This document shows, in pieces, positions 25,473 to 54,953 of a DNA stretch of 64,000 nucleotides (positions are counted from its first letter, which is position 1; the number at the start of each line of letters is the position of its first letter). A model generated the notes under the pieces. It was not told where the DNA came from and made no database searches. It saw only the letters and a list, made by a program, of their open reading frames with translations. The stretch spans positions 122,001 to 186,000 of the forward strand of contig RPFO01000050.1 in NCBI GenBank assembly GCA_009746045.1, read 5' to 3'. This DNA comes from Mesostigma viride (taxonomy: Eukaryota; Streptophyta; Mesostigmatophyceae; Mesostigmatales; Mesostigmataceae). The position numbers were made by a program, and so were the translations under genes.

Positions 25473-26056
25473 TGTTACGTCCCTGCCCAGACTCACCTAG
25501 CCTGAGCTACGTAGCAAAAGACCCTTCTTGCCGGAATTAGGAATAATTCAAGATAGCCTAAAGTAGGTTGCGCTTCACGACGTGAGTCGTGAGATATCTG
25601 GCATCACGGCTTAATGCCAAGCTAATTAGTTCACACTTATAATGGCTAGCAATACCAATTACAAATGGATAATGCCCCGGGCTCAATGTGTAGGCGTATT
25701 CGCACTTATCATTCATTAAACCAAGAGGACGAGACTCTCGTCCTTGGACCAATTTAACCTAGGTTGGTTGCGGCGCAGATACACGCCAATTTCCTTAGAA
25801 CAATCCGAGTCACTCATTCCACGTAGGATCCGGGCCGACATCGACCCTCAACTATAGGATCCACGCCTAGAACCACTGACAGACTCAGAACCGGCGCGGC
25901 GCCACAGCGCCGGCCCCTAAAAGGACAACCTAGGACCAAAATAACTAGTCCAATTCACACAATAGCCAAGGTCCGTAAAACCCAAGTTCAATAGACCAAA
26001 CAGCCTTAGTAATTTATTCCATTGTTACGTCCAGCCAAAAGGGCAGGGACGTAACA
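25473..26056 (-). repeat. 3' LTR of chromovirus
   Basis: 584 bp, beginning TGTTACG and ending CGTAACA. The outer 16 bases at each end form a perfect inverted repeat, longer than the usual TG...CA. Confidence 0.95.
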
Positions 26057-26075
26057 CTCCTCCCCCCCATGGGGG
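26057..26075 (-). promoter_or_regulatory. Polypurine tract
   Basis: On the minus strand CATGGGGGGGAGGAG ends directly at the 3' LTR. This is the expected primer for plus-strand DNA synthesis. Confidence 0.8.
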
Positions 26076-36489: not shown

Positions 36490-37073
36490 TGTTACGTCCC
36501 TGCCCAGACTCACCTAGCCTGAGCTACGTAGCAAAAGACCCTTCTTGCCGGAATTAGGAATAATTCAAGATAGCCTAAAGTAGGTTGCGCTTCACGACGT
36601 GAGTCGTGAGATATCTGGCATCACGGCTTAATGCCAAGCTAATTAGTTCACACTTATAATGGCTAGCAATACCAATTACAAATGGATAATGCCCCGGGCT
36701 CAATGTGTAGGCGTATTCGCACTTATCATTCATTAAACCAAGAGGACGAGACTCTCGTCCTTGGACCAATTTAACCTAGGTTGGTTGCGGCGCAGATACA
36801 CGCCAATTTCCTTAGAACAATCCGAGTCACTCATTCCACGTAGGATCCGGGCCGACATCGACCCTCAACTATAGGATCCACGCCTAGAACCACTGACAGA
36901 CTCAGAACCGGCGCGGCGCCACAGCGCCGGCCCCTAAAAGGACAACCTAGGACCAAAATAACTAGTCCAATTCACACAATAGCCAAGGTCCGTAAAACCC
37001 AAGTTCAATAGACCAAACAGCCTTAGTAATTTATTCCATTGTTACGTCCAGCCAAAAGGGCAGGGACGTAACA
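36490..37073 (-). repeat. 5' LTR of chromovirus
   Basis: 584 bp, same length as and seemingly identical to 25473-26056. It should contain the promoter and polyadenylation signal. A 64-codon frame inside it is present in both LTRs and is not a gene. Confidence 0.95.
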
Positions 37074-37078
37074 CAAGA

Positions 37079-37950
37079 AGGGGATATAATCCTCATCTGA
37101 GCTGTCCTCTATATCCTGTAATGGATGCAGACGAGGCGGTAGTGTAGCGGCTATCCTCAGGGGCAATAACATGCATCCACTTGCTATAGATAATAGGGTT
37201 GGGTCGGTTACCGGTTTTATAGCCCATCCGGGTACTGGAACCGGTCCTCGCCCGGCCTCGATCGGCTACCAGTACCGGTATCGGCGAGGCAATCAGTACT
37301 GGTATATACCGGCCGGTTACCGTCGTGCATGCATGATGGTTACCGGCCGGTACCGGTATACCCAATGGCATATAAACTGAAGGCTACTTTAAAGTCCAGT
37401 GCATGCTAACTAGTAGTAGTACTCCGGTTACCATCAGTTAATTACAGGTACCGGCCGATCATGCATGCACCATCGGTTAACTGCTGGTTACCGTTACCAC
37501 ATTCAACTTGCTGTCTGGAAGAGCTAGTGACGAAATACGTACTTGCTGGGCTGGCTGTTGGTTGGTGCAATTACCGGTATCGGTACTACCGCTAACGGTC
37601 GGTTGTAGTAACCGGCCCCTCCCGGTTGTACTCGGCCCTGGTAACCGACCCGACCCTTGGTTGTAAACTCGCCCCCGGTAACCGACCCATGACCCTAATT
37701 AATTAATTAATTAATTAAACTCGTGCTCCCGTTGGGGAGTCACGGAGCACCCTAATATGACCCTAATATGCACCATATATACAGATATACGAGCCACGAG
37801 CCACGAGCCACGAGGTAGCCATGGCTGACGGCGGAGCTCATAATAACTTTCACGTTTGAGCACCGAATTTAGCCGTGAATATCACAATTAATCGATGCGT
37901 CTTTCTACGACGCACATGCTGATATAATTTTCCGAAGCTATTACGCAATA
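37079..37950. other. TACCGG-rich stretch, no gene
   Basis: 37195-37690 is packed with TACCGG/CCGGTA and GGTTACC motifs in both orientations. It is followed by (TTAA)n at about 37698-37718. The 37717-37752 segment matches the 3' end of the retroposon at 49796-49832. A CGAGCCA repeat (about 37789-37814) follows. Confidence 0.6.
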
Positions 37951-39725: not shown

Positions 39726-40820
39726 ATGGCTATCACGAACAAGAATGTCGCTAAGAAGCTTACCTACAACGAGGATGATGATGGGCAGGATCGGCGGATG
39801 CCCAAAGACAACAATCAGAAGCCGGCTGGCGATGCGGCCATTTCCAAGAAAAAGAAGAAAAACAAAAAGAACCACAATGTCTGCCAGGACGAGGGGACGG
39901 CGGCTGCAAAGCCGACCGACCTACCCCCCTCCCCTGAGAAGCCGGAGGACGAGACGGCTCCCCCCCGGGGGACCGGCTTACCCTCGACTCCGGCAGCTGC
40001 CCCAGCCGCAACCACGGCTGGCACAGCCATGGCTGCGGAGCCCTCGGTGGTAAACCCCACCGCGGCTCCCCAGTTCGGCCCCCCGTTGCCGACTATTCGG
40101 GAGCTCATGCCCCGTCAGACGGCTTCGGTGGCGCCGGACGGGGCGATCACGTTTCGCCCCGCCACATCTGATCTTCGTGTTCCCTTCGCTCAGGGACACA
40201 ATCATTTCGAGCTAACGTTTGGGCGACCTAGTTCTGCTTCCCTTCTTCGCAAGAAGAAGGACATGGAAAGCATTAAGCTCGCGCGGGTGGTGCGTAGACC
40301 CGTGGAGCCCATCGGAGGACAACAAATGTCCGATGATGAGGTCTCCGACACTGCCAGTCTTCCCGATGGGGAGACTGAGATAACTCTTACCCCAGCGCTC
40401 CTGGCGGTCGAGCAGGCCGCGCTGGTGGCTAATGAAGAACGCCGAGCGAGGCAGCGAGACCGGGAGGTCCGTCGAGAGGCGGCTTTTCGGCTCGCCGCTA
40501 AGCGGCAGGAATATGAGGAGGAGGCCGCCCGTCGCCTGGCCACCCACCAGGCGATGGCGGCGGCGTACCGCGAGGCCACTCAGCGGCTACGCGACCTCCT
40601 CAAAAATGCTGACTATCCGATGGAATACTCGGATGGTCAAGACCTGGCCGAGCTTGCTCGGTCAGCACATTTTAAAGCCATGTCCTCCATAACCCAAGCC
40701 AGGGTCACGGAGGCCATCTTGGCCAAGCATGGGGTGGTAGCTGAAGATGCCCCCCCGCTGGAAACCACCAGCAAGAAACCCTCTCCTCCTCAACCCTTGC
40801 AGTACCCCAAACACCCGTAG
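39726..40820 (+). CDS. N-terminal part of a retroelement Gag, interrupted
   Basis: The ORF opens with a clear ACCATGGC start. It encodes a Lys-rich NLS-like block (KKKKKNKK), a Pro/Ala-rich linker and a long charged helical, probably coiled-coil region rich in Arg/Glu/Ala (about residues 240-290). It is true Gag sequence up to the TAC codon at 40803-40805. The last five codons and the stop lie inside the inserted element. The frame resumes at 52939 across the insertion. It is assigned to Gag because the continuation contains a capsid-like region and a zinc knuckle. Confidence 0.7.
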   Translation: MAITNKNVAKKLTYNEDDDGQDRRMPKDNNQKPAGDAAISKKKKKNKKNHNVCQDEGTAAAKPTDLPPSPEKPEDETAPPRGTGLPSTPAAAPAATTAGTAMAAEPSVVNPTAAPQFGPPLPTIRELMPRQTASVAPDGAITFRPATSDLRVPFAQGHNHFELTFGRPSSASLLRKKKDMESIKLARVVRRPVEPIGGQQMSDDEVSDTASLPDGETEITLTPALLAVEQAALVANEERRARQRDREVRREAAFRLAAKRQEYEEEAARRLATHQAMAAAYREATQRLRDLLKNADYPMEYSDGQDLAELARSAHFKAMSSITQARVTEAILAKHGVVAEDAPPLETTSKKPSPPQPLQYPKHP

Positions 40821-40956
40821 GTTTGGTAAATTTGCATTTACCAAAACCAAATTTTTTGAGATATGCGTTTTTTGGTCTTCAATGACGCATATGGTTGGAA
40901 AAAACACCAAAACAATGTTCTGACAAAAAAAAATTTCATGGCTTGTGTCAGAAAAT

Positions 40957-43267
40957 TGACGTGAAGGTGCTTTTCAAGGCATTTTGTGCCAAATATGACA
41001 TGTCAATTTTTCCTGACTGCAGTTTTGCTCATACATAGGCCCACATGTGGTCGTTAAGGTCTATCTAGTGCCCCAAGAGGGATTGCAAAGTTGCACATTT
41101 TTTGGATACCTGCAGGGGTCCCAACGGTGACGTCAAGTAGCATAAAAACCGCGGTTTTGCTCGGTTTTAGCCCATTTAGGCACCCTAGACCATGAAAATG
41201 AGCTCAGATTGCAGCCAAACTTGGCAGCTGCCCTTGCCATGCTAAAGAAAGAACATGAGCAAAGTTGAACATTTTTTGGATGCCTGCAGGGCACCCTTGG
41301 TGACGTCAAATAGCATAAAAACCGCATTTTTGCTCGGTTTTAGCCCGTTTAGGCACCCTAGACCATGCAAATGAGATCAGATTGCAGCCAAACTTGGCAG
41401 CTGCCCTTGCCATGCTGCAAAACGAACATGGGCGAAGTTGCACATTTTTTGGATGCCTGCAGGGCACCCTGGGTGACGTCAAATAGCATAAAAACCGCAT
41501 TTTTGCTCGGTTTCAGCCCATTTAGGCACCCTAGACCATGCAAATGAGCTCAGATTGCAACCAAACTTGGCAGCTGCTCTTGACATGCTGAACCAAGAAC
41601 ATGTGCAAGGTTGCACATGTTTTGGATACCTGCAGGGCACCCTGGGTGACGCCAAGTAGCATAAAATTAATTGACGCGAAGGCGCAAATACGACATGTCA
41701 ATTTTTCCTGGCTGCAGTTTTGCTCTAAATATGACTCATATGTGGTGGTTAAGGTCTATATAGTACCCCAAGAGGGATTGCAAAGTTGCACATTTTTTGG
41801 ATACCTGCAGGGGTCCCAACGGTGACGTTTAGTAGCATAAAAACCGCGATGTGGCACGATTTTAGCCTGTTTAGGCACCCTAGACCATGCAAATGAGCTC
41901 AGATTGCAGCCAAACTTGGCAGCTGCCCTTGCCATGCTAAAGATAGAACATGTGCAAAGTTGCACATTTTTTGGATACCTGCAGGGCACCCTGGGTGACG
42001 TCAAATAGCATAAAAACCGCATTTTTGCTCGGTTTTAGCCCATTTAGGCACCCTAGACCATGCAAATGAGCTCAGATTGCAGCCAAACTTGCCATGCTGC
42101 CCTTGCCATGGTAAAGAAAGAACATGAGCAAAGTTGCACATTTTTTGGATGCCTGCAGGGCACCCAGGGTGACGCCAAGTAGCATAAAATTAATTGACGT
42201 CAAGGCGCAAATACGACATGTCAATTTTTCCTAGATGCAGTTTTGCTCATACATAGGCCCATACGTGGTAGTTAAGGTCTCTCTAGTGCCCCAAGAGGGA
42301 TGGCAAAGTTGCACACTTTTTGGATACCTGCAGGGGTCCCAACGGTGACGTCAAGTAGCATAAAAACCGCGGTTTTGCTCGGTTTTAGCCCGTTTAGGCA
42401 CCCTAGACCGTGCAAATGAGCTCAGATTGCAGCCAAACTTGGCAGCTGCCCTTGCCATGCTGCAAAACGAACATGGGCGAAGTTGCACATTTTTTGGATG
42501 CCTGCAGGGCACCCTGGGTGACGTCAAATAGCATAAAAACCGCATTTTTGCTCGGTTTTAGCCCGTTTAGGCACCCTAGACCATGCAAATGAGATCAGAT
42601 TGCAGCCAAACTTGGCAGCTGCCCTTGCCATGCTGCAAAACGAACATGGGCGAAGTTGCACATTTTTTGGATGCCTGCAGGGCACCCTGGGTGACGTCAA
42701 ATAGCATAAAAACCGCATTTTTGCTCGGTTTCAGCCCATTTAGGCACCCTAGACCATGCAAATGAGCTCAGATTGCAACCAAACTTGGCAGCTGCCCTTG
42801 CTATGCTTCAAAAAGCACATGTGCAAAGTTGCACATGTTTTGGATGCCTGCAGGGCACCCTGGGTGACGTCAAGCAGCATAAAAATCATTGACGTGAAAG
42901 GTGCAAATACGACATGTCAATTTTTCCTAGCTGCAGTTTTGCTCATACATAGGCCCATATGTGGTGGTTAAGGTCTTTATAGTACCCCAAGAGTGATTGC
43001 AAAGTTGCACATTTTTTGGATACCTGCAGGGGTCCCAACGGTGACGTTTAGTAGCATAAAAACCACGATGTCGCACGATTTTAGCCCGCTTAGGCACCCT
43101 AGACCATGCAAATGAGCTCAGATTGCAGCCAAACTTGGCAGCTGCCCTTGGTATGCTGCAAAAAGCACATTTGCAACGTTGCACATTTTTTGATACCTGC
43201 AGGGCACCCTGGCTGATGCCAAGTAGCATAAGATTATTTGACGTGAAGGCGCGAATACGACATTTCA
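40957..43267 (+). repeat. Left satellite arm (~173-bp monomer)
   Basis: Monomers run GCATAAAAACCGC ... GCTCGGTTTTAGCC ... ATGCAAATGAGCTCAGATTG ... GGATGCCTGCAGGG ... GGTGACGTCAA. Every two to four monomers a different block of about 120 bp is inserted (CGACATGTCAATTTTTCC ... ACCCCAAGAGGGATTGC), at about 40957, 41668, 42193, 42888 and, cut short, 43240. This is a higher-order repeat. The many small frames in it are not genes. Confidence 0.93.
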
Positions 43268-43270
43268 AAT

Positions 43271-45008
43271 GGGTGGGTGGGTGGGTGGTACGTGGTTGGC
43301 CCGTGGGTAGGTGCAGGTGGGTAGGTGCAGGGTGGTGGGTGGGTGGGTGGGTGGGTGGGTGGGTGGGTGGGTGGGTGGGTGGTGGGTGGGTGGGTGGGTG
43401 GGTGGGTGGGTGGGTGGGTGGTGGGTGGGTGGGTGGGGGTGGGTGGGTGGGTGGGTGGGTGGGTGGGTGGGTGGGTGGGTGGGTGGGTGGGTGGGTGGGT
43501 GGGTGGGTGGGTGGGTGCATGGGTGGGCGGGTGCGTGGGTGGGCGGGTGGGTGGTGGGCGGGTGGGTGGGTGGGTGGGTGGGTGGGTGGGTGGGTGGGTG
43601 GGTGGGTGGGTGGGTGGGTGGGCGGGCGGGGGGCGGGCGGCGGGCGGGCGGGGGTGGGCGGCGGGCGGCGGGGGGCGGGGTGGGTGGTGGGTGGGTGGGT
43701 GGGTGGGTGGGTGGGTGGGTGGGTGGGTGGGTGGGTGGGTGGGTGGGTGGGTGGGTGGGTGGGTGGGTGGGTGGGTGCATGGGTGGGCGGGTGCGTGGGT
43801 GGGCGGGTGGGTGGGTGGGTGGGTGGGTGGGTGGGTGGGTGGGTGGGTGGGTGGGTGGGTGGGTGGGTGGGTGGGTGGGTGTGGGTGGGTGGGTGGGTGG
43901 GTGGGTGGGTGGGTGGGTGGGTGGGTGGGTGGGTGGGTGGGTGGGTGGGTGGGTGGGTGGGTGGGTGGGTGCATGGGTGGGGGGTGGGTGGGTGGGTGGG
44001 CGGGTGGGGTGGGTGGGTGGGTGGGTGGGCGGGCGGGCGGGTGGGCGGGCGGGCGGCGGGCGGGCGGCGGGCGGCGGGCGGGCGGCGGCGGGCGGGCGGG
44101 CGGGCGGGCGGGCGGGCGGGCGGGCGGGCGGGCGGGCGGGCGGGCGGGCGGGCGGGCGGCGGGCGGGCGGGCGGCGGGCGGCGGGCGGGCGGGCGGCGGG
44201 CGGGCGGGCGGGCGGCGGGGGCGGGCGGGCGGGCGGGCGGGCGGCGCGGCGGCGCGGGCGGCGGGGGCGGGCGGCGGCGGGCGGGCGGGCGGGCGGGCGG
44301 CGGCGGGCGGGCGGGCGCGGCGGGCGGGCGGCGCGGCGGGCGGGCGGGCGGGCGGCGGCGGGCGGGCGGGCGGGCGGGCGGGCGGGCGGGCGGGCGGGCG
44401 GGCGGGCGGCGGGCGGCGGCGGCGGGCGGGCGGGCGGGCGGGCGGCGGGCGGGCGGCGGGCGGGCGGGCGGGCGGGCGGCGGGCGGGCGGGCGGCGGGCG
44501 GGCGGGCGGGCGGGCGGCGGCGGGCGGGCGGCGGGCGGCGGGCGGGCGGGCGGCGGGCGGGCGGGCGGGCGGGCGGGCGGGCGGGCGGGCGGGCGGGCGG
44601 CGGGCGGGCGGGGGCGGGGGCGGGCGGGCGGGTGGGTGGGTGGGTGGGTGGGTGGGTGGGTGGGTGGGTGGGTGGGTGGGTGGGTGGGTGGGTGGGTGGG
44701 TGGGTGGGTGGGTGGGTGGGTGGGTGGGTGGGTGGGTGGGTGGGTGGGTGGCGGCGGGCGGGTGGGTGGCGGGTGGGCGGTGGGTGGGTGGGTGGTGGGT
44801 GGGTGGGGCGGGCGGGCGGGCGGCGGGCGGGCGGGCGGCGGGCGGCGGGCGGGCGGGCGGCGGGCGGGCGGGCGGGCGGGCGGGCGGGCGGGCGGCGCGG
44901 CGGGCGGGCGGCGGGCGGGCGGGCGGGCGGGTGGCGGGCGGGCGGGCGGGCGGGCGGGTGGGTGGGTGGGTGGGTGGGTGGGTGGGTGGGTGGGTGGGTG
45001 GGTGGGTG
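43271..45008 (+). repeat. GGGT / GGGC minisatellite, 1.7 kb
   Basis: GGGT blocks (43271-43620, 43681-44028, 44632-44748, 44959-45008) alternate with GGGC/GGC blocks (43621-43680, 44030-44630, 44810-44958). It starts abruptly inside a truncated satellite block at 43267. The plus strand can form G-quadruplexes along its length. Confidence 0.97.
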
Positions 45009-46390
45009 CCGTGGGGAGGCCTGCCTCTGTTAGTACTTAGTCTACGCATTACCCAATCGAGCATATGTGCTCGCATGAGTGAGTCTCACACAGCTGGATG
45101 GCCGATACAGTTGTGGACAGGGATTGGTGTGCCTCACACAACGATAAATCTATAGATAGGCCCTAGTAAGATGTTGCAATGTACTATCACCTAAAAATGC
45201 TTCCCCACATCAATTAACATGTTCATCATAGCAAATAAAGCGAATTTCTTCCTGCCACTGTGGTAAGCAACAGACTGTGGTAACGGCCACTCGGCCAGCC
45301 CGATGCTCAACCAAAAGTACGCCAAGAAAGTGCAAGGAGTAAGTTTGATTTCCTCCTCAGGGTCCACGCCTGGTCATGCTGCATGCGCACTTAAGCCCAT
45401 ATTTTTTAACAGCTTCAGCCTCGAAAACACCCGCCCTTTTTACCTTTTGATTGCCTCGATCGCGTGTCACAATAGGACAACTGGTCATCACCGCCATCGG
45501 GGTCAAGGTTCGACCACTTCCGGTCCAGTCTGCGATCCCATTGCCCGAAACTTCATTTCACCAGGAATAGGTTCCGCGACTGCACATTTCCAATGGATGG
45601 TGCCGAGAATGCCAACATAGCCGTTCTCGTGAGCATCACCAGCAGCTTGCAGTATTCAGCTGCTCAAGTTCGATTCATCAAGGGCCTGCACGAGTTGCAA
45701 AATTGATCAGCAGCCAGTCCTCGTGCTCGCACGGGAAAAAAAGGATTTCCCCTTGAGAAAATGCCAAAACATTCATTATTATTATAACAGCAGATCTGTA
45801 AATATACTCGAACTCTCGGTTGGTCAGCGCGCTACCTTTCACCGTACTTCCGCGGTGTGCCAAGCCAGCAAACGGACTTTCTCCCGTCATGCAGTGTCTC
45901 TAGATGTTTAATAGCAACATTCCAGGACGCAAGAGAACCCATTACCCCAGGACCTCCGAAGTATGTCATTCTGCCAGCTGCCTATAAATAAAACCTCTTC
46001 GAAACGACTGAGCAACGAAAACTAAACCGTTGACCAATGACCAATTCGGCATTACTCATTGATGGCAAATAAAATAGACATGGTTTGAGCCGGAATGGGT
46101 AGTCCTCTGCCGAATTCGCATGTTCCGTCTATACGACTACACAGATTCATAGCATTGCGAAGAACAATCCTTCGACGTTGCTTGGCAGTTGGCTGCTTGT
46201 GAAATGGCGGCTTTTGGGCAGGGGCCACTGCGACCACGTGCATGTCCTGTCCAGCTTACTGTGTCCTCGTGTCGCATCACGAGTCTGTCCATTATTTGTA
46301 CAGTCTGTCATTATTAGGTATCGTACAATGCTGGCTATATTTTGTCTCGACTCACCAGGCCGAGAGGCCTGGCCTCTTCCTTGTCCGACC
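45009..46390. other. Centre of the large element, no gene recognised
   Basis: Unique sequence with short open frames (for example 45303-45620, 105 codons) that show no domain. Confidence 0.5.
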
Positions 46391-46719
46391 TGTCAATTAT
46401 GTCAATTATGTCAATTATGTCAATTATGTCAATTATGTCAATTATGTCAATTATGTCAATTATGTCAATTATTTGTTTGCGTAAACTTTTGCTAGACTTT
46501 CAATATTTAAGTTTTATTTTCCAAGGAAAATCACTAAAATCTGCACTTTCTAAGGACTTTGATACCAAGACCTAGTAATTTTGACTATGTAGTTTTGACC
46601 ATGTAACTACGTAAGATTCTAATACTTTACAAATGCTCCCAAACAAATAATTGACATAATTGACATAATTGACATAATTGACATAATTGACATAATTGAC
46701 ATAATTGACATAATTGACA
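46391..46719. repeat. Inverted pair of 9-bp arrays
   Basis: (TGTCAATTA)9 at 46391-46471 continues into TTTGTTTG. After about 160 bp, CAAACAAA leads into (TAATTGACA)8 at 46648-46719. The two arms of about 80 bp are reverse complements and could fold into one hairpin. Confidence 0.93.
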
Positions 46720-47300
46720 GGCTGGCCAACCAGGCGGTGCGTGCCAGCGTGCACGGGCACTGCGTATTTTGGCAGAAGGTGCCGGGGCTGGTGTGAATTA
46801 TGCAGCCTGCAATACCATCCCAGCACTCGGGCAGCAATTTTCTCGCATAGCCGTCGTAAGTTAAAGGTGCTCTATAAGCGACACGCGAGGCTGAGCGAGA
46901 ATGCTAGACATTCGATTAATATTGATGGCGGTTGCCTTGCTGACAGAAGGCGTACGATGCGCGCGATCGGTCGAATTCTCCGAATGGCCGCAGTCACCGA
47001 AACCTTGGGTGATAGCGGTCTTGCCGGCCGCTGTCGTCGCAGTATTTCTGTTGTGATCATAATACTTAATTAGGCCCCACCGTCTAGGTAATCTAGTCGC
47101 TCTACACGTAAGCCAGCCTTTATTTCAATGCACAAGGCAACACATTTCCATCACCATTCATCTTCATCATCCTGAACGACTCGAACACGCGGACAAGATA
47201 ACGGCAGGCTCGAGCTACCATGGTCCGGATTCTCCCGATTTCTGGCCTGCGCTGGTTGTCTCCTTGATAATACTTAATATTGCTTTTGGTGGGATTTTGC
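46720..47300. other. Unassigned sequence between the 9-bp arrays and the 47302 ORF
   Basis: A plus-strand frame around 46730-46860 encodes ARALRILAEGAGAGVNYAAC and ends near GQQFSRIAVV just before a GTAAGT. It looks like a real exon, but I recognise no family. Confidence 0.3.
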
Positions 47301-47301
47301 G

Positions 47302-47915
47302 ATGCACGTGTTTTGGATGGGCCACATGTTGGCGCAGGTTATTGACTTGGATGGGCCTACCCCAGATTCCATCGTGGTTGCGCCATATCACGCCAGCTCG
47401 TGGACCGGGCAGTTCAATAAGGTGCACCTGGGGGCAGGGTCGGCCAGTGGGCAAAGCAACCAGGGGTTAGTTGTTCCATATAACGACATTGTTTTGCAAC
47501 ACTGGACCGTTGGAAATGGGGCGGTAGTCCATACGCCAAAGCTGATGGGGGCAAGGAAGCTCAACCAAGGGACGCTAGATGCCTTGAAGCTTCATCCTGA
47601 CATTGACTTTGAGGGGTACAAGACAGTGCAAGCCTCAGAACGTACGACCAAGGTGGCATGTGAATCTTACTTCCGTGAGAGAGGGAGTGCTGCATTGCTA
47701 TAGGCATGCGGACATGCGCACTCTTTTTAGTGGGCAAGCCAAGAAGGCAAAATAGGTTCCATGGGTGGGTTACAAAGGTGGGCCATGCTTTCAAACTTGT
47801 ATGGAGTGATGGGCAGTATGAGGAGTATAGCAAGCTAGAGGACGTGCTGAAATTTGTGTGTGGGTGCCCTTACGGTGTAAATGCTTTTGGCCGTGAGCAA
47901 GTCTTGCAGCAGTAG
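47302..47915 (+). CDS. Unknown protein inside the large element (two frames)
   Basis: Frame 1 (47302-47703, 133 codons) and frame 2 (47706-47915, 69 codons) appear to be parts of one protein. The second contains FHGWVTKVGHAFKLVWSDGQ, reminiscent of Tudor/chromo-like or other chromatin-reader barrels (inference). The first has no known motif. No DDE or tyrosine recombinase motif is seen. It is the best candidate for a gene belonging to the 12.1-kb element. A stop or one-base shift at 47701-47706 separates the parts. Confidence 0.4.
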
Positions 47916-48655
47916 CAAGTTGACAATGGTGCTGGCAGTTCTACGGGAGCTCCTGCTGTGCCTCAGGTGTGTGATGCCACCACAGTCGACATCCACCACG
48001 ATGTCCACTCAAGTGACCATGAATCGGATATGGAAAACATTGACTGCATGTGACATTAGTGTAGACAGTGATGATGAGGCGGATGAGGCGGAGCGCGATT
48101 GATCATAATAGGCTGGTGGCGCAGCATGCGCACGCCTTGGTAATGGTGTCGTCACGATTCCCTGCCTATCCATGTTTTTAATGTGCCTATACCTCATGCA
48201 CACACGTTTTTGATTTATTGATTTCATGTCATGTCATGTCATGTCAATATATATATTTATGGCTTGTGGCTGATGTGTTATTCCGCCGCACCCGGGCCGA
48301 CTTTGTCGCGACCCATGCGGTCTAGATTCCTTCCAGGCCTGCATGGTGGGCCGGCAGCGCTGTTGCTGCGTGTAGTTTTGTGATGTATAGTTAGTTGTAC
48401 CTTGTGCCGCTGGCGTGATCCTTGGATGTCTGTGTCAGATTACTATTAATTTCTTCAGGGTTATTCTCCCAGTTCTCGGGTTTTTCCTTATGTTGCATGC
48501 CTATCTCACCTCCGTAATCTATCATTCTCAATGAATATATATTTATGGTGGGCTCGGGGCCATGTGTCAATTACGCAAAGATAACTAATATGTGAAATCC
48601 ATTGATTGGCCAGTACTAAGCATGCATGGACTTGTGTTCTTTTTGCAATATGGAA
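47916..48655. other. No gene recognised
   Basis: Contains a short (CATGT)n run at about 48226-48246 and AT-rich patches; it leads into the right satellite arm. Confidence 0.5.
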
Positions 48656-49786
48656 AGTTAGGGTGCAATCTGAGCTCATTTGCATGGTCTAGGGTGCCTA
48701 AACGGGCTAAAACCGAGCAAAAATGCGGTTTTTATGCTATTTGATGTCACCCAGGGTGCCCTGCAGGCATCCAAAAAATGTGCAACCTTGCACATGTTCT
48801 ATTTTCATCATGGCAAGGGCAGCTGCCAAGTTTGGCTGCAATCTGAGCTCATTTGCATGGTCTAGGGTGCCTAAATGGGCTAAAACCGAGCAAAACCGCG
48901 GTTTTTATGCTACTTGACGTCACCCAGGGTGCCCTGCAGGTATCCAAAACATGTGCAACTTTGCTCATGTTCGTTTTTCAGCATGTCAAGAGCAGCTGCC
49001 AAGTTTGGCTGCAATCTGAGCTCATTTGCATGGTCTAGGGTGCCTAAATGGGCTAAAACCGAGCAAAAATGCGGTTTTTATTCTACTTGGCGTCACCCAG
49101 GGTGCCCTGCAGGCATCCAAAAAATGTGCAACTTTGCTCATGTTCTTTCTTTAGCATGGCAAGGGCAGCTGCCAAGTTTGGCTGCAATCTGAGCCCATTT
49201 GCATGGTCTAGGACCTGCCTAAACAGCCTAAAACCGAGCAAAACGCGGTTTTCATGCTACTTGACGTCACCGTTGGGACCCCTGCAGGTATCCAAAAAGT
49301 GTGCAACTTTGCAATCCCTCTTGGGGTACTATATAGACCTTGTCCACCACATATGAGTCATATTTAGAGCAAAACTGCAGTCAGGAAAAATTGACATGTC
49401 GTATTTGCGCCTTCACGTCAATTAATTTTATGCTACTTGGCGTCACCCAGGGTGCCCTGCAGGCATCCAAAACATGTGCAACTTTGCACATGTTCTATTT
49501 TTAGCATGTCAAGAGCAGCTGCCAAGTTTGGTTGCAATCTGAGCTCATTTGCATGGTCTAGGGTGCCTAAACATGGGCTAAAACCGAGCAAAAATGCGGT
49601 TTTTATGCTATTTGACGTCACCCAGGGTGCCCTGCAGGCATCCAAAAAATGTGCAACTTTGCACATGTTCTTTCGTTAGCATGGCAAGGGCAGCTGCCAA
49701 GTTTGGCTGCAATCTGAGCTCATTTGCATGGTCTAGGGTGCCTAAACAGGCTAAAATCGTGCCACATCGCGGTTTTTATGCTACTT

Positions 49787-51205
49787 CATTCATTCATTAA
49801 ACTCGTGCTCCCGTTGGGGAGTCACGGAGCACCGAAGTGCTTTTAATCCCTGTGTGTGCACTACAGGAGAAAGGGCAGAGACCCCCAGTCTCCTTCATGC
49901 CAAAGGCATGCCACAGCTGCAATCGGGCGCGGCTAGCTAAAGGACAGGCTAACGATCCGGCAAACTGTGGGTGCAATAAGACCCATGTGAGCATATCATA
50001 GCAAGGAGCGTGGGCAAGTAATCTGAACATAGCCAGGGCGTAGCATGGCTGTACTAGGACTAGGCTAAGGCTATGGCTGGTTGTGTACCGTGCGTTGGCG
50101 GCACGTGACTAGGTGTGTTGGCACAGCTAGGCGACATCTAGGCATGGCTGCCTTAGCGGCAGTGACGCCAATGGTTACAAGCTAGGGCTATTCTATTCTA
50201 GCCCGCTGGGGGCGTCCACATCTTGTGGTTGATCATCAGGTCCCCGCCCCTCCAGTACACCTTGGGCTTCTGGGGGTCCTGCTTATGGCGGAGGTATTCC
50301 GGCCACAGGTCGCGTCGCTGCTGTTGCTGAGCGGGGGTGAGGTCGTCATCCAGCGTCCAGGTGAGGTCGTGCAACCGCTTGCGACGAGAGAGGAACCGCT
50401 GCTTATCCTCAGGGGAGGGGAAGGTGAGTAGGACTGGTGGGGGAGCCGCCTTGTCCCGTGAGTGGGGAAGGCGGTGGCACCCACGCAGTTCTACCTCACC
50501 TACCAGGCCCATGAGGGTAAGAAGCTGGTTCTTGAGCTCGTCAGCAAGAGAGGTTGACGTCTCACCTGGCTTCTGGGGGAAGCGACGTAGCACCACTCGG
50601 CACTCGCGGCGAGCGCGGTCGGTGACCTCCCGTTGCTGGGCCTGGCGGTGGTCCTCCAGCTCCTGGAGCTTTGTGGCGATGGCGTCGGTGGTGGAGGCGG
50701 TCGCTGACCGCAGCAGGTCCGCGTAGGAGAGCGGCGGGAGGTCGCCAGCATCCTGCCGGGGTGGCTGGGATGCAATGGTGGCCGTCTGCGCCGCTATCTT
50801 GGGGACCTGTGTGGCCAGGGCCTCGGTGTGGGCGGTGATGGCCTCAAGCTTCTTCAGGAGCACGCCACACTTGCCCTCCACCTGGTTAAGGCGAGAGACA
50901 AGTGCAGCATGCGTTTCCGAAGCCTGCGCCGTGGTGTGTAGCGCCGTGAACTGGGGTTGTAGCTTGTGGATGACCTTGGTTTCCACGTTGGAGACCCGGG
51001 CCTCGACTTTGTTGAGCGTGGTGTTCAGCGATGTCAGCTGCTCGGCCAGCGGCCAGGTCACGTGCTCCTCCAGCACTGCGCGGATATCATCCTTGCCGAG
51101 GGAGGAAGCCGATGGGGCTGCCGGCTGTGCGGGGGCTGGGGTGCGGAGCGTTCTGGTGATGTCGCCGAGGCGGATCTGGAATTGGCTGGTCAGGATAATC
51201 AGGCG
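49787..51205 (-). mobile_element. ORF1-only retroposon inserted in the satellite
   Basis: An 11-bp target duplication, TTATGCTACTT, flanks it at 49776-49786 and 51206-51216. On the minus strand it enters in an open ORF1 frame, ends ORF1 at 50198, has about 400 bp of 3' UTR and finishes with an AATG tail (49787-49799). No ORF2 (endonuclease or RT) is present. It parallels mammalian HAL1 half-L1 elements. Confidence 0.85.
50198..51205 (-). CDS. L1-type ORF1 protein (5'-truncated)
   Basis: The frame is open from the element's 5' junction to the stop at 50198, about 335 codons, with no ATG near the start; a true N-terminus is missing. The first half is a heptad-rich coiled coil (SLNTTLNKVEARVSNVETKV onward). 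The second half has an RRM-like region (CRVVLRRFPQKPGE, VELRGCHRLPHSR, VLLTFPSPEDKQRFLSRR) and the C-terminal domain DDDLTPAQQQQRR...PKVYWRGGDL. The layout is that of L1 ORF1p, an RNA chaperone that coats the element RNA. Family assignment rests on architecture, not on a search. Confidence 0.7.
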   Translation of the reverse strand, partial: RLIILTSQFQIRLGDITRTLRTPAPAQPAAPSASSLGKDDIRAVLEEHVTWPLAEQLTSLNTTLNKVEARVSNVETKVIHKLQPQFTALHTTAQASETHAALVSRLNQVEGKCGVLLKKLEAITAHTEALATQVPKIAAQTATIASQPPRQDAGDLPPLSYADLLRSATASTTDAIATKLQELEDHRQAQQREVTDRARRECRVVLRRFPQKPGETSTSLADELKNQLLTLMGLVGEVELRGCHRLPHSRDKAAPPPVLLTFPSPEDKQRFLSRRKRLHDLTWTLDDDLTPAQQQQRRDLWPEYLRHKQDPQKPKVYWRGGDLMINHKMWTPPAG

Positions 51206-52938
51206 TTATGCTACTTGACGTCACCGTTGGGACCCCTGCAGGTATCCAAAAAATGTGCAACTTTGCAATCCCTCTTGGGGTACTATATAGACCTTAACCA
51301 CCCATATGAGTCATATTTAGAGCAAAACTGCAGTCAGGAAAATTTGACATGTCGTATTTGCGCCTTCACGTCAATTAATTTTATGCTACTTGGCGTCACC
51401 CAGGGTGCCCTGCAGGTATCCAAAACATGTGCAACTTTGCACATGTTCTATTTTTAGCATGTCAAGAGCAGCTGCCAAGTTTGGTTGCAATCTGAGCTCA
51501 TTTGCATGGTCTAGGGTGCCTAAATGGGCTAAAACCGAGCAAAAATGCGGTTTTTATGCTACTTGACGTCACCCAGGGTGCCCTGCAGGCATCCAAAAAA
51601 TGTGCAACTTCGCCCATGTTCGTTTTGCAGCATGGCAAGGGCAGCTGCCAAGTTTGGCTGCAATCTGAGCCCATTTGCATGGTCTAGGGTGCCTAAACAT
51701 GGGCTAAAACCGAGCAAAAACGCGGTTTTTATGCTATTTGACGTCACCCAGGGTGCCCTGCAGGTATCCAAAAAATGTGCAACTTTGCACATGTTCTTGC
51801 TTTAGCATGGCAAGGGCAGCTGCCAAGTTTGGCTGCAATCTGAGCTCATTTGCATGGTCTAGGGTGCCTAAATGGGCTAAAATCGTGCCACATCGCGGTT
51901 TTTATGCTACTTGACGTCACCGTTGGGACCCCTGCAGGTATCCAAAAAATGTGCAACTTTTTTGCAATCCCTCTTGGGGTACTATAAAGACCTTAACCAC
52001 CACATATGAGTCATATTTAGAGCAAAACTGCAGTCAGGAAAAATTGACATGTCGTATTTGCGCCTTCACGTCAATTAATTTTATGCTACTTGGCGTCACC
52101 CAGGGTGCCCTGCAGGTATCCAAAACATGTGCAACTTTGCACATGTTCTATTTTTAGCATGTCAAGAGCAGCTGCCAAGTTTGGTTGCAATCTGAGCTCA
52201 TTTGCATGGTCTAGGGTGCCTAAATGGGCTATAAAACCGAGCAAAAATGCGGTTTTTATGCTATTTGACGTCACCCAGGGTGCCCTGCAGGCATCCAAAA
52301 AATGTGCAACTTCGCCCATGTTCGTTTTGCAGCATGGCAAGGGCAGCTGCCAAGTTTGGCTGCAATCTGATCTCATTTGCATGGTCTAGGGTGCCTAAAC
52401 GGGCTAAAACCGAGCAAAAATGCGGTTTTTATGCTATTTGACGTCACCCAGGGTGCCCTGCAGGTATCCAAAAAATGTGCAACTTTGCTCATGTTCTTTT
52501 TTCAGCATGGCAAGGGCAGCTGCCAAGTTTGGCTGCAATCTGAGCTCATTGCATGGTCTAGGGTGCCTAAATGGGCTAAAACCGAGCAAAAATGCGGTTT
52601 TTATGCTACTTGACGTCACCGTTGGGACCCCTGCAGGTATCCAAAAAATGTGCAACTTTGCAATCCCTCTTGGGGCACTAGATAGACCTTAACGACCACA
52701 TATGGGCCTATGTATGAGCAAAACTGCAGTCAGGAAAAATTGACATGTCATATTTGGCACAAAATGCCTTGAAAAGCACCTTCACGTCAATTTCGTCGGG
52801 GGGGGGGTAAGGTTTTTTGGTCCAAATACATTTCTCGAGGCATCCTGCACCAAGTATGAGTCAGACAAGCAAAAATATTCAGTTTTTAAAATTTTACCAA
52901 AAATGTGGTAATTTACCAAACCTACGGGTGTTTGGGGG

Positions 52939-54329
52939 TACAAGGAGGGATTGTTGGTCTTGGCCTGGCAGGGGAAGGGCAAGGCCCAAGAGTTAAATGT
53001 CAAGGAGGCCATGATCATGGGCAACCCCCTCCCTGACATCCCTACGGATGAGGCTGCCTTTCAGGCGGCCCTCCGCGAGCATGAGGTCCGCCAGGAGATG
53101 AAACGGCTCATGCAGGAGGAGGCAGCGAGGAGAGCGGCGGCAGTCCGGCAGACACCCCTGCCCGCCCCTCCACCGCTGGGGCTGGACCCAGTGGGGTTTC
53201 CCGGACCCCCCCGGACTCCCCCCGGGCCACCCCGGCCCCCCCTCCCCCTCCCCCACCACCCCAGGTTCGCCCTGTGGGTTGGGGCCCCCTCCCCAACCAG
53301 GGGGGGTGGCCAGGACCCCAGGAGGCCCTGGGGGGAGGTCAAGAGGTGCCCAGGGCACCCACCCAACCTGCTGAGGCCCCCCCAAGGACGGGGGATATCC
53401 AGGAACAGCTCGCCATTCTCCAGGCTCAGCTGGCCTCATTGCAAGACCAGCAGTTAACAGCTAACCAGCTGCAAACTGTCGAGGGCCTGCGCGCCCTGAT
53501 GTCGCGGTATGAGCGGGGGACCATCAACCTGGACCCCACCCGCCTTCAACAGGCAACTGACGTCTTCTTGAGGGCCAACCCCCCTCTCACAGGTGTGTTC
53601 AACCCTCATAAAAAGGAATCCAAAATCAATATTGCTGGTTTGCCTGAGGGTCACACTGTTGAACAAGCTAAACAATTTGTCTTTGCTCTGGAGTATGGGA
53701 TGGAAGGTCTAAACCTTAGACACCAGTTTAAGGCTCTCAGGGCCTCCTCCACATTCCACCAATCATCTCCTGCAATCAGAGCATTGATTCAAACCTATCA
53801 GGAACGCACCCTGACACCTGAAGCAGCCATTGAACAGTGGCCTACCTTTATCACTGATCTGAAACAGCTAGTGCTTACCAATAACCACATGGAAGCAGTA
53901 GAACGTTTCAACTGGCTTGCTGCATATAAGGTGAACAAGAATAACCTCTCTGGGGATGCAAAAACATACAGGGTAATGATAGAGAAAGACCTTGAGCTTC
54001 TCAAGCTCCAACCAAGGTATCTCATCCACACCTGGCTAACAAAAGCTAATTTGCAACCTTCTGTCCTGGCTACCCTGCTTACAGGCCTCAAGTCCCTCTG
54101 GGACAACTTCAGAGCTGCCATGCTCTATATCGAGGAGGCAGTGGACCCCCTGGGTACTGGCAACCCCCAGGCCCAGGACCCCAAGGTCCAGGGTGTCCAA
54201 GGCCACAAGCGCAAGGGGGGAGCCAGCCAGGGGGGGGCACCCAAGACCCACAAGTCCTCCCACCAAGGGGGCAGTGGCTCTCAGGGGCGTGGCAACACGT
54301 GGCACCGTGTGCCCCTGCATGGCAACCCC

Positions 54330-54374
<45 letters not shown>

Positions 54375-54953
54375 AACAACAACAGGTCCCAGCAGGGCAA
54401 TAATAACAACAGGTCCCAACAGGGCCAAAACAACAACAACAACAGGTCCCAGCAGGGCCAGAACCACAACAACAATCGGTCCCAGCAGGGAAATAACAAC
54501 AACAACAACACCAACCAACCTGGAAACCCTGGCCCACGTTGCCTGAGGTGCTTCCAGAGGGGGCATATTCGGGACAACTGCCCCAACAACGACTCCCTGA
54601 ACACCAACGTGGATCTCTGCCCGGGTTGCTGGCACGCACGTCATCCCCTGGGACCTCCTGGCAGCCGGTGCAACAGGACTCGCTACCAAAAACAATGTGA
54701 GTTCTCTCACCTTGCTTACTCTGAGGATGATGATCTCATTACCATTGGAGATGGCAGCCCGGGCATAATTGATTTTGAGGCAGCAACCTTACTGTCCTCC
54801 CAACACCCTGTACTGGAACCTTACATAAAAGCACTAACCCCTACTGTTGACAACTCCATAGATATCAAGGAGCTTGCTCATCAGCTGCACCTAGCCATGC
54901 CGGGTCATGAAACAGTGGCTGAGGAACTGGCCAGACGGCTGGGGGCCGGGTAG
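52939..54953 (+). CDS. C-terminal part of the interrupted Gag, with zinc knuckle
   Basis: It resumes the 39726 frame after the insertion. A Pro-rich C-run region (about 53170-53290) holds a one-base shift from frame 52939-53457 to frame 53274-54953. The second frame shows a capsid-like helical region (QQATDVFLRANPPLTGVFNP to LYIEEAVDPLG), a poly-Asn tract (AAC repeat, 54328-54382) with SQQG repeats, and a CCHC knuckle, CLRCFQRGHIRDNC. A second Cys/His cluster follows (CPGCWHARHPLGPPGSRC). It then runs into integrase-type sequence (HQLHLAMPGHETVAEELARR). Confidence 0.75.

Follow-up and report, generated by a model that had tools for sequence, protein, structure and literature searches.

A foldback-type transposable element family with satellite-built arms and 3-bp target-site duplications, apparently non-autonomous, in Mesostigma viride

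Foldback elements with tandem repeats in their inverted ends are represented by Tetris of Drosophila virilis and by Galileo. Tetris is described as apparently non-autonomous, with no autonomous partner found by its authors; its inverted ends contain internal tandem repeats of ~220 bp that also occur in longer satellite-like arrays, and its target-site duplications (TSDs) are 8-10 bp with a middle of varied composition, the authors suggesting Mutator (PMC4079207). Galileo, of the P superfamily, is described as a foldback element whose terminal tandem repeats hold extra transposase binding sites (PMC4079207). We analyzed a 64-kb stretch of Mesostigma viride DNA (the window), in which an element of 12,133 bp (40805-52937) is inserted in a Gag gene. 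Set against these descriptions, it resembles Tetris in being apparently non-autonomous with tandem repeats in its inverted ends, and Galileo in its foldback build with such repeats; it differs from Tetris in its 3-bp TSD, its CCCC ends and a constant core that carries a gene remnant of a DUF7869-paired family.

The element is bounded by a perfect 28-bp inverted match, CCCCAAACACCCGTAGGTTTGGTAAATT, at 40805-40832 (+) and 52910-52937 (-). The end sequence, CCCCAAACACCCGTAGG, begins CCCC, a start from which a few copies of the family depart by one base, and the right end reads GGGG followed by GTA. The 16-mer CCCAAACACCCGTAGG, with three mismatches allowed, occurs in the window only at 40806-40821 (+) and 52921-52936 (-), exactly in both cases; an earlier note made from this sequence had recognized the inverted ends, and their perfect match extends beyond this word. 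Interior to the repeats lie a left subterminal region (40833-40952, +) and a right one (52794-52909, -), mostly unlike each other in alignment; both types recur in other family copies, as does the terminal repeat. The earlier note also saw GTAC on both sides, and it does stand at 40802-40805 and 52938-52941, but the last C on the left is the first base of the inverted repeat. Because the duplications of the family are 3 bp long, we take the TSD to be GTA, at 40802-40804 and 52938-52940, followed by the first C of the element; the left limit also accords with four uninterrupted Gag copies.

Searching the 440-Mb assembly for the 16-mer with at most one mismatch gave 59 places, versus 10 for the reversed word that served as a control. 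Thirty-eight of the 59 face each other as 19 pairs, with 8.4-48 kb between partners, supplying the further loci with paired ends for which the earlier note had called. Twelve others are single ends, one of which (C1531) has 13 flanking bases identical to those of C655, and these may be one insertion. The remaining nine were left out: seven on C1768 that belong to a 42-bp tandem repeat rather than to element ends, one on C1, where the sequence behind the word is unrelated to the element, and one on C1107. Copy numbers are lower bounds because only the best candidates were scored in the genome searches. An exact 3-bp TSD flanks 16 of the 19 pairs (CTC, TTG, GTA, GAC, ATG, AAG, TTG, CAC, ATA, CTG, GAG, GTG, CTG, ATT, TAG and CCC), at a chance expectation of about 1 in 64 per pair; the CCC case, C1923, lies beside a C-rich end, and the pairs on C1648, C2111 and C1421 have no TSD. 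The central base is A or T in 15 of the 16, a regularity seen post hoc. No pair has a 4-bp duplication; we reject the 4-bp palindromic duplication proposed earlier, since the TSD of the family is 3 bp and its sequence differs between loci.

The insertion in Gag can be read against empty sites. When short stretches of the two flanks are joined by script, the right flank is open for 171 codons in the restored frame, versus 17 and 30 in the others, so that the restoration of the Gag reading frame was rightly noticed before. We scored 40 places similar to the left flank. The insert is carried by two, the window and C1945, the latter having the same insertion together with its left flank; this contig is either allelic or the product of a duplication. 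At 17 places the right flank directly abuts, 0-1 base apart (by our reading of two tables), and at two more it keeps the register but for 71 unaligned bases at its start; the other 19, whose right flank lies outside the 40 scored, are assigned to neither group. We read four of the empty places (17 plus two), and all are uninterrupted, three as GCAGTA/CAAGG and one as GCAATA/CAAGG, giving the precise empty site at the join that an intact Gag copy was expected to show. Identity to the empty copies is 84-87% over 200 bases for the right flank versus 95-98% for the left, and the divergence sits in the first ~70 bases of the right flank. Protein searches with both Gag halves gave no match at E 1e-3.

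A possible objection is that a satellite block expanded by chance, or was carried by segmental duplication, and happened to land in Gag; the arms are indeed satellite, their lengths differ between copies, and C1945 shares the insertion together with its left flank. The identical 28-bp ends, the TSDs at different sites and the precise empty site refute this objection, artefact aside, and we give it practically no weight. The family has transposed in the past, and the 19 paired copies, their duplications and the empty Gag sites bear out the earlier proposal of a mobile element rather than a chance satellite.

The left arm (40953-43268, +) is built of A units, 173 bp long, together with variant B units, and its outer part mirrors the right arm, in which repeat analysis places the satellite in opposite orientation in an inner part (48655-49786, -) and an outer array (51206-52793, -). 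The A/B units themselves run through 40990-43268 (+), 48655-49786 (-) and 51218-52756 (-), in agreement with the view that the inner arms are one satellite in two orientations; at the thresholds used, the window holds none outside the element. We read 12 of the 19 paired copies in full and seven at their ends only. All 12 have A/B arms in opposite orientation, of lengths that differ between copies, so the suggestion that the satellite spreads as transposon ends holds at other loci too. Inverted arms of tandem repeats in 12 of 12 copies, with precise insertion and a TSD in 16 of 19 pairs, are the marks of a foldback-type element. In the window copy arm-to-arm identity is 98% in the outer part and declines inward to 83-88% (the nested LINE-like insert described below was excised ~2 bases off its limits in the arm scripts, which hardly affects the figures, and satellite unit limits were set by hand for some comparisons). 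Between copies the outer arms differ by ~4% (10 copies compared, two of the 12 left arms being left out for lack of an anchor), whereas the cores differ by at most 1.45%. The satellite would grow within the arms by unequal exchange and by copying between arms, and every transposition would spread it further; the repeated units may act as extra, putative protein-binding sites. Alike arms recur at many sites, insertion is precise, empty sites exist and the cores are nearly identical, which makes the family a clear example of transposition scattering a satellite, and its identity gradient and arm/core contrast make it material for the study of arm turnover.

Between the arms, a TGGG microsatellite (43270-45008, +), an array of a kind found in all 12 cores read, leads into a unique core (45009-48654, +) that is common to the family. 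The core alignment of 12 copies has 3,233 columns, 74 of them variable, and four copies at different sites (TSDs AAG, TTG, CTG and GTG) have cores that differ by only 0-0.06%; cores this similar indicate that the family moved recently. The core contains a small hairpin, formed by an array of the 9-bp unit TGTCAATTA (46391-46472, +) and its inverted partner array ATAATTGAC (46647-46719, -), both arrays being shorter in the other 11 copies read; its presence in all 12 cores read led us to reject the idea that the hairpin (46391-46719) is a later nested MITE. None of the core frames tested (against Pfam, PDB, and viral and prokaryote contigs) has a transposase domain, a P/THAP protein or a DDE_Tnp_4-type match. 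Rfam gave no match at gathering scores, and the end and satellite words had no useful match in viral contigs.

The core does hold the broken end of a gene, a point absent from the earlier note. By tblastn, 47314-47700 (+) corresponds to residues 352-476 of an intact 633-aa relative, ORF2, at 50% identity, and 47700-48035 (+), in a shifted frame and with one more stop in the window copy, to residues 476-584 at 45% (E 1.6e-53). This remnant lies between the ends in all 19 paired copies. It belongs to a multicopy protein family, some members of which form a two-ORF, transposon-like unit: of 14 loci with an ORF2 frame in the 633-639-aa class, 13 carry a 585-aa DUF7869 frame (ORF1) ~2 kb upstream. 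ORF2 itself matches no Pfam family. At C1568, the one two-ORF locus that we read, ORF1 matches Pfam DUF7869 at E 1.2e-12 and had no useful match in PDB or viral contigs, and a tandem array with a period of 173 is present. This array scores 35.0 against unit A, above all 200 dinucleotide shuffles (maximum 33.5), a small margin at a single locus; the other orientation scores 25.5, which four of the 200 shuffles reach, and for unit B the scores do not exceed chance (99 and 163 of 200 shuffles). The word TGACGTNNNNTAGCATAAA, picked after viewing the alignment, occurs 17 times in the element, nowhere else in the window, and three times at C1568 at 173-bp steps. The two-ORF units of this genome resemble the element in ORF2 homology and, at C1568, in a 173-period repeat with a shared word, but differ in having intact ORF1 and ORF2, a short tandem array and seemingly other ends, no CCCC end being present in the stretches of C1568 examined.

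One could suppose instead that introns divide a functional transposase gene in the core, the copies then being autonomous, as part of the core has a single variable site in ~600 columns and the remnant is open for 141-176 aa. We consider this highly improbable: a shared stop codon closes the frame in the window copy and in six others that were translated, the frames of C2133 and C1421, which lack one base at this point, extend to only 176 aa, and the match to intact ORF2 is confined to residues 352-584. Nor was ORF1 matched at E 1e-5 in 12 copies (the window copy and 11 others), or DUF7869 found inside any paired copy among the best 150 of 275 candidate places. Among assembly ends with at most one mismatch to the 16-mer, we found no autonomous copy combining CCCC ends with a transposase. 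As candidate partners, C1958 has only 23 bp of the end, followed by other sequence with a frame that is gypsy-like by eye, and C280 is a further copy with a doubled end. A frame on C1391 was dropped as low-complexity. C1454 carries a rearranged relative, broken up by a frame that by eye resembles the Copia type, with a weak OTU-like match (E 0.024) below the Pfam cut-off.

Taking the evidence jointly, we are confident, short of certainty, that these copies are a recently mobile, non-autonomous foldback DNA-transposon family, probably mobilized in trans and of DUF7869 descent. The element is most probably a derivative, moved in trans, of an apparently undescribed group of DUF7869 DNA transposons. 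The family would descend from a two-ORF transposon in which ORF1 carried DUF7869 and of which the end of ORF2 was left in the core; a transposase supplied in trans would recognize the 28-bp ends, cut at both and join the element to target DNA opened with a stagger of 3 nt. In Pfam DUF7869 is a domain of unknown function, so its role here is one that we infer; it is the likely candidate transposase, in a multicopy family of an early-diverging streptophyte alga. We extend this only tentatively, and with less than even confidence, to the proposal that an undescribed group of eukaryotic DNA transposons, perhaps a superfamily, uses DUF7869 proteins as transposases and carries a working 173-bp subterminal satellite, which defective derivatives like the present element enlarged into kilobase arms. 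Were this so, a satellite would have been born, kept alike and dispersed as transposon ends in this alga. Searching the literature for DUF7869 by name returned nothing.

The duplications bear on other assignments. The 8-10-bp TSD of Mutator-like or Tetris-type elements is not seen here. Galileo and the P superfamily make 7-bp TSDs, unlike the 3 bp of this element, which also has no P/THAP protein in the core frames tested. In piggyBac the ends begin CCC and the TSD is TTAA, a 4-bp palindrome; our element shares the CCC start, and GTAC as a TSD would have been a further resemblance, but here only 3 bp are duplicated and they form no palindrome, and none of the 19 pairs has any 4-bp duplication. 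CACTA/EnSpm ends begin CACTA or CACTG, in contrast to CCCC. PIF/Harbinger elements have a 3-bp TSD, typically TWA. It is conceivable, if unlikely, that the same mobile element uses an unrelated transposase with a 3-bp stagger (e.g. a PIF/Harbinger or CACTA relative), its ORF2 piece being captured and its satellite kinship convergent. The length and A/T-centred bias of the TSDs, although post hoc for the latter, recall PIF/Harbinger, and the DUF7869 locus that was read seems to have other ends. Yet the 16 duplications have no TWA consensus, no such transposase was detected in the core frames tested, the ORF2 remnant is in every paired copy, and a related 173-period array sits beside an intact two-ORF unit. 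We therefore prefer DUF7869 descent. To our knowledge, the known cases of satellite-armed foldback elements are Mutator and P; a 3-bp TSD falls outside both, and this family indicates that such an element can use one. By title, literature searches returned only a rice MULE-like sequence for GTAC target duplications with transposons, only mites and insects for Mesostigma with foldback, and no such elements for Mesostigma viride with transposase among the matches listed.

A further observation, also absent from the earlier note, is that a LINE-like insert (49787-51205, -) with a TGAA-unit tail is nested in the right arm and divides it in two, without belonging to the mobile unit. It is flanked by its own 11-bp duplication, TTATGCTACTT, at 49776-49786 and 51206-51216, and its 335-aa frame (50201-51205), which we rejected as a gene of the element for this reason, has relatives in the Mesvir1 protein set. 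The C113 copy has a 96.7% relative of the insert in its own right arm.

The element that interrupts the Gag gene of the window (40805-52937, 12,133 bp) is bounded by the inverted ends named in the earlier note: a word search of the window found their 16-mer, here the end word, at two places, facing inwards. The terminal inverted repeat is perfect for 28 bp and has CCCC at its start; inside it the left and right sequences align as mostly unlike over ~120 bp, past which the arms match again (245 bp at 98%) and pass into the satellite arrays. In the 439.9-Mb assembly (2,243 contigs), where the window is C446:122001-186000, we found the end word with at most one mismatch at 59 places, against 10 for the control, the same word backwards. 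Nineteen facing pairs, spaced 8.4-48 kb, account for 38 of these places; the rest are 12 single ends, 7 in an unrelated tandem repeat, 1 unrelated and 1 unclassified. The tandem repeat (C1768:1736355-1736664, step 42 bp), which carries a one-mismatch end word at its seven places, is no kin of the family. One right end (L003, on C280) is doubled: a complete 28-bp end and a short gap precede a second, partial end that has the usual right subterminal region. Another place (L061, on C1958) keeps 23 bp of an end of the element, which abut other sequence with one frame that is gypsy-like by eye; this fragment is possibly the remnant of a broken end.

We read three bases on both sides of the ends of all 19 pairs. 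An exact 3-bp target duplication is present in 16 pairs and a 4-bp duplication in none of the 19, and therefore the palindromic 4-bp GTAC duplication proposed earlier is really GTA followed by the first C of the element. The duplicated triplet differs between loci; 15 of the 16 have A or T as the middle base, a bias spotted post hoc (P ~4e-5 if A/T content is taken as 44%). The element is a DNA transposon insertion with a 3-bp duplication, and the duplication length, as tested here, excludes Mutator and P. The pairs without an exact duplication are those on C1648, C2111 and C1421. In the latter two (L043, L044, L049, L050) the triplet on the left of the C2111 element is TCA, which on the opposite strand reads TGA, the triplet on the right of the C1421 element; this relation may reflect exchange between copies or may be chance.

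The earlier note had proposed comparison with an uninterrupted copy of the Gag gene, and such copies exist: four places read straight across the insertion site, three as GCAGTA/CAAGG and one as GCAATA/CAAGG (the slash marks the site). For the sequence to the left of the insertion 40 places were scored, at 94-100%, the window and C1945 among them, and for the right flank likewise 40. Reading the two match tables together, we found the flanks directly adjoining (0-1 base between) at 17 places; at 2 more the right flank is in register with its first 71 bases unaligned, and for the remaining 19 matches to the left flank, no right flank lies within the 40 scored. On the left of the site the empty copies match at 95-98%; on the right they are less close, 84-87% across 200 bases, and the longer alignments there, at 91-96%, begin at base 68-72. 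C1945 has the same insertion (L063, C1945:298918-298933) with a left flank 99.9% identical over 1.5 kb; it is either a duplicate or an allelic contig.

The window copy and eleven others were read over their whole length, the other seven pairs at their ends only. All 12 have arms of satellite units A and B in opposite orientation, with arrays of roughly 1.4 to 4.8 kb per arm, some interrupted, and all share a core with some 3.3 kb of unique sequence besides its TGGG array. Tetris of Drosophila virilis and Galileo, both described in PMC4079207, share this foldback build with the element. TTTGGTAAA occurs four times in the window, where 0.31 would be expected, each time no more than 45 bp from an end of the element, and four times per copy in 12/12 copies; it may be a candidate protein-binding site. 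The core alignment has 3,233 columns shared by every one of the 12 copies; 74 of these vary, and the largest pairwise difference is 1.45%. The cores of C1435, C1480, C1793 and C2043 are 0-0.06% apart at different places (duplications AAG, TTG, CTG and GTG), and these copies therefore moved recently. Within the core, two 9-bp arrays at 46391-46719 pair as a hairpin; their unit numbers vary among the 12 copies (3-9 and 3-8), by analogy much as in a changing microsatellite.

The core frames gave no Pfam match of note. The core does hold two pieces of a broken gene, the ORF2 remnant, and in the genome search both pieces match within each of the 19 paired copies. Outside the family, relatives at 47-50% identity make up 124 of the 150 places scored with the first piece, and at many of them the second piece continues in an open frame of the same length (e.g. 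572 aa, C446:1975323). At the relative on C1568, ORF1 (585 aa; DUF7869, E 1.2e-12 from a search with 516 aa of it) lies upstream of ORF2 (633 aa, no Pfam family), and behind ORF2 stands a tandem array with a period of 173. Residues 352-476 and 476-584 of ORF2 find their match in the window core, a single frameshift separating the two stretches, and no match to ORF1 was found in any copy read; because the remnant is broken and ORF1 is missing, the element is non-autonomous.

A 585-aa DUF7869 frame lies about 2 kb upstream of ORF2 at 13 of 14 loci, a count that covers ORF2 frames of 633-639 aa only, as a mobile two-gene unit would predict. Scored places for DUF7869 number at least 150 in this genome, 0 of 150 of them within paired copies, and 14 control genomes gave none. 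The C1568 array scored above 200 of 200 dinucleotide shuffles against unit A, by a narrow margin, and TGACGTNNNNTAGCATAAA is common to the element (17 times) and C1568 (3 times, in 173-bp steps); the array thus appears, narrowly, to be related to unit A. The ORF2 remnant, together with the satellite in common, leads us to infer that the DUF7869 family may be the transposase source, but the ends at C1568, the sole locus read, look different and no autonomous partner was found.

Unit A is 173 bp and unit B about 174-180 bp. From the outside, the left arm runs BAAA BAA BAAA BA and a partial B, and the right arm BAAA BAAA B and, past an interruption, AA B AAA and a partial A. The six outermost units of the window copy average 97.7% identity to their mirror partners, compared with a mean of 92.7% over 118 other pairs; 1 of 20,000 permutations gave so high a value, and one non-partner pair is also at 100%. 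Identity between the arms of this copy drops from 98% on the outside to 83-88% on the inside; since the inner value is no higher than for unrelated units, this trend is in part loss of register. Over the outer 560 bp in ten copies, left and right arms of the same copy differ by 4.3%, against 4.9% for random pairing (0.18% of arm shuffles were as low), and left arms of different copies differ equally, by 4.3%. Same-copy likeness would weakly suggest that one arm is copied from the other. Common descent accounts for part of it, because the window arms are about as near to those of copy C335a (1.4-1.6%) as to each other (1.6% different).

What interrupts the right arm is a LINE-like insert, flanked by an 11-bp duplication of its own. 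Its 335-aa frame has 12 protein matches, the best at 96% identity over the full length; 10 are named Mesvir1, presumably for Mesostigma viride. A second 3' end of this LINE-like family lies outside the element at 37700-37751 (compare 49782-49833), with a different tail.

The host frame is Gag-like through its CCHC knuckle, with no match in Pfam; joined in the window, it is open for 171 codons rightwards of the site. The Gag reading changes frame within a C-rich stretch (52942-53457 and 53085-54953). By eye, integrase-like pieces seem to come straight after Gag, as they would in a decayed or deleted retroelement, though Pfam finds none. A Mesostigma viride genome paper gives repeats as 66% and LTR elements as 27.9% (PMC6947507). 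Elsewhere in the window, identical 585-bp direct repeats (25473-26057 and 36490-37074) flank a gypsy-like retrotransposon on the minus strand, with matches to reverse transcriptase, RNase H and integrase; it has the look of an LTR element that inserted very recently.
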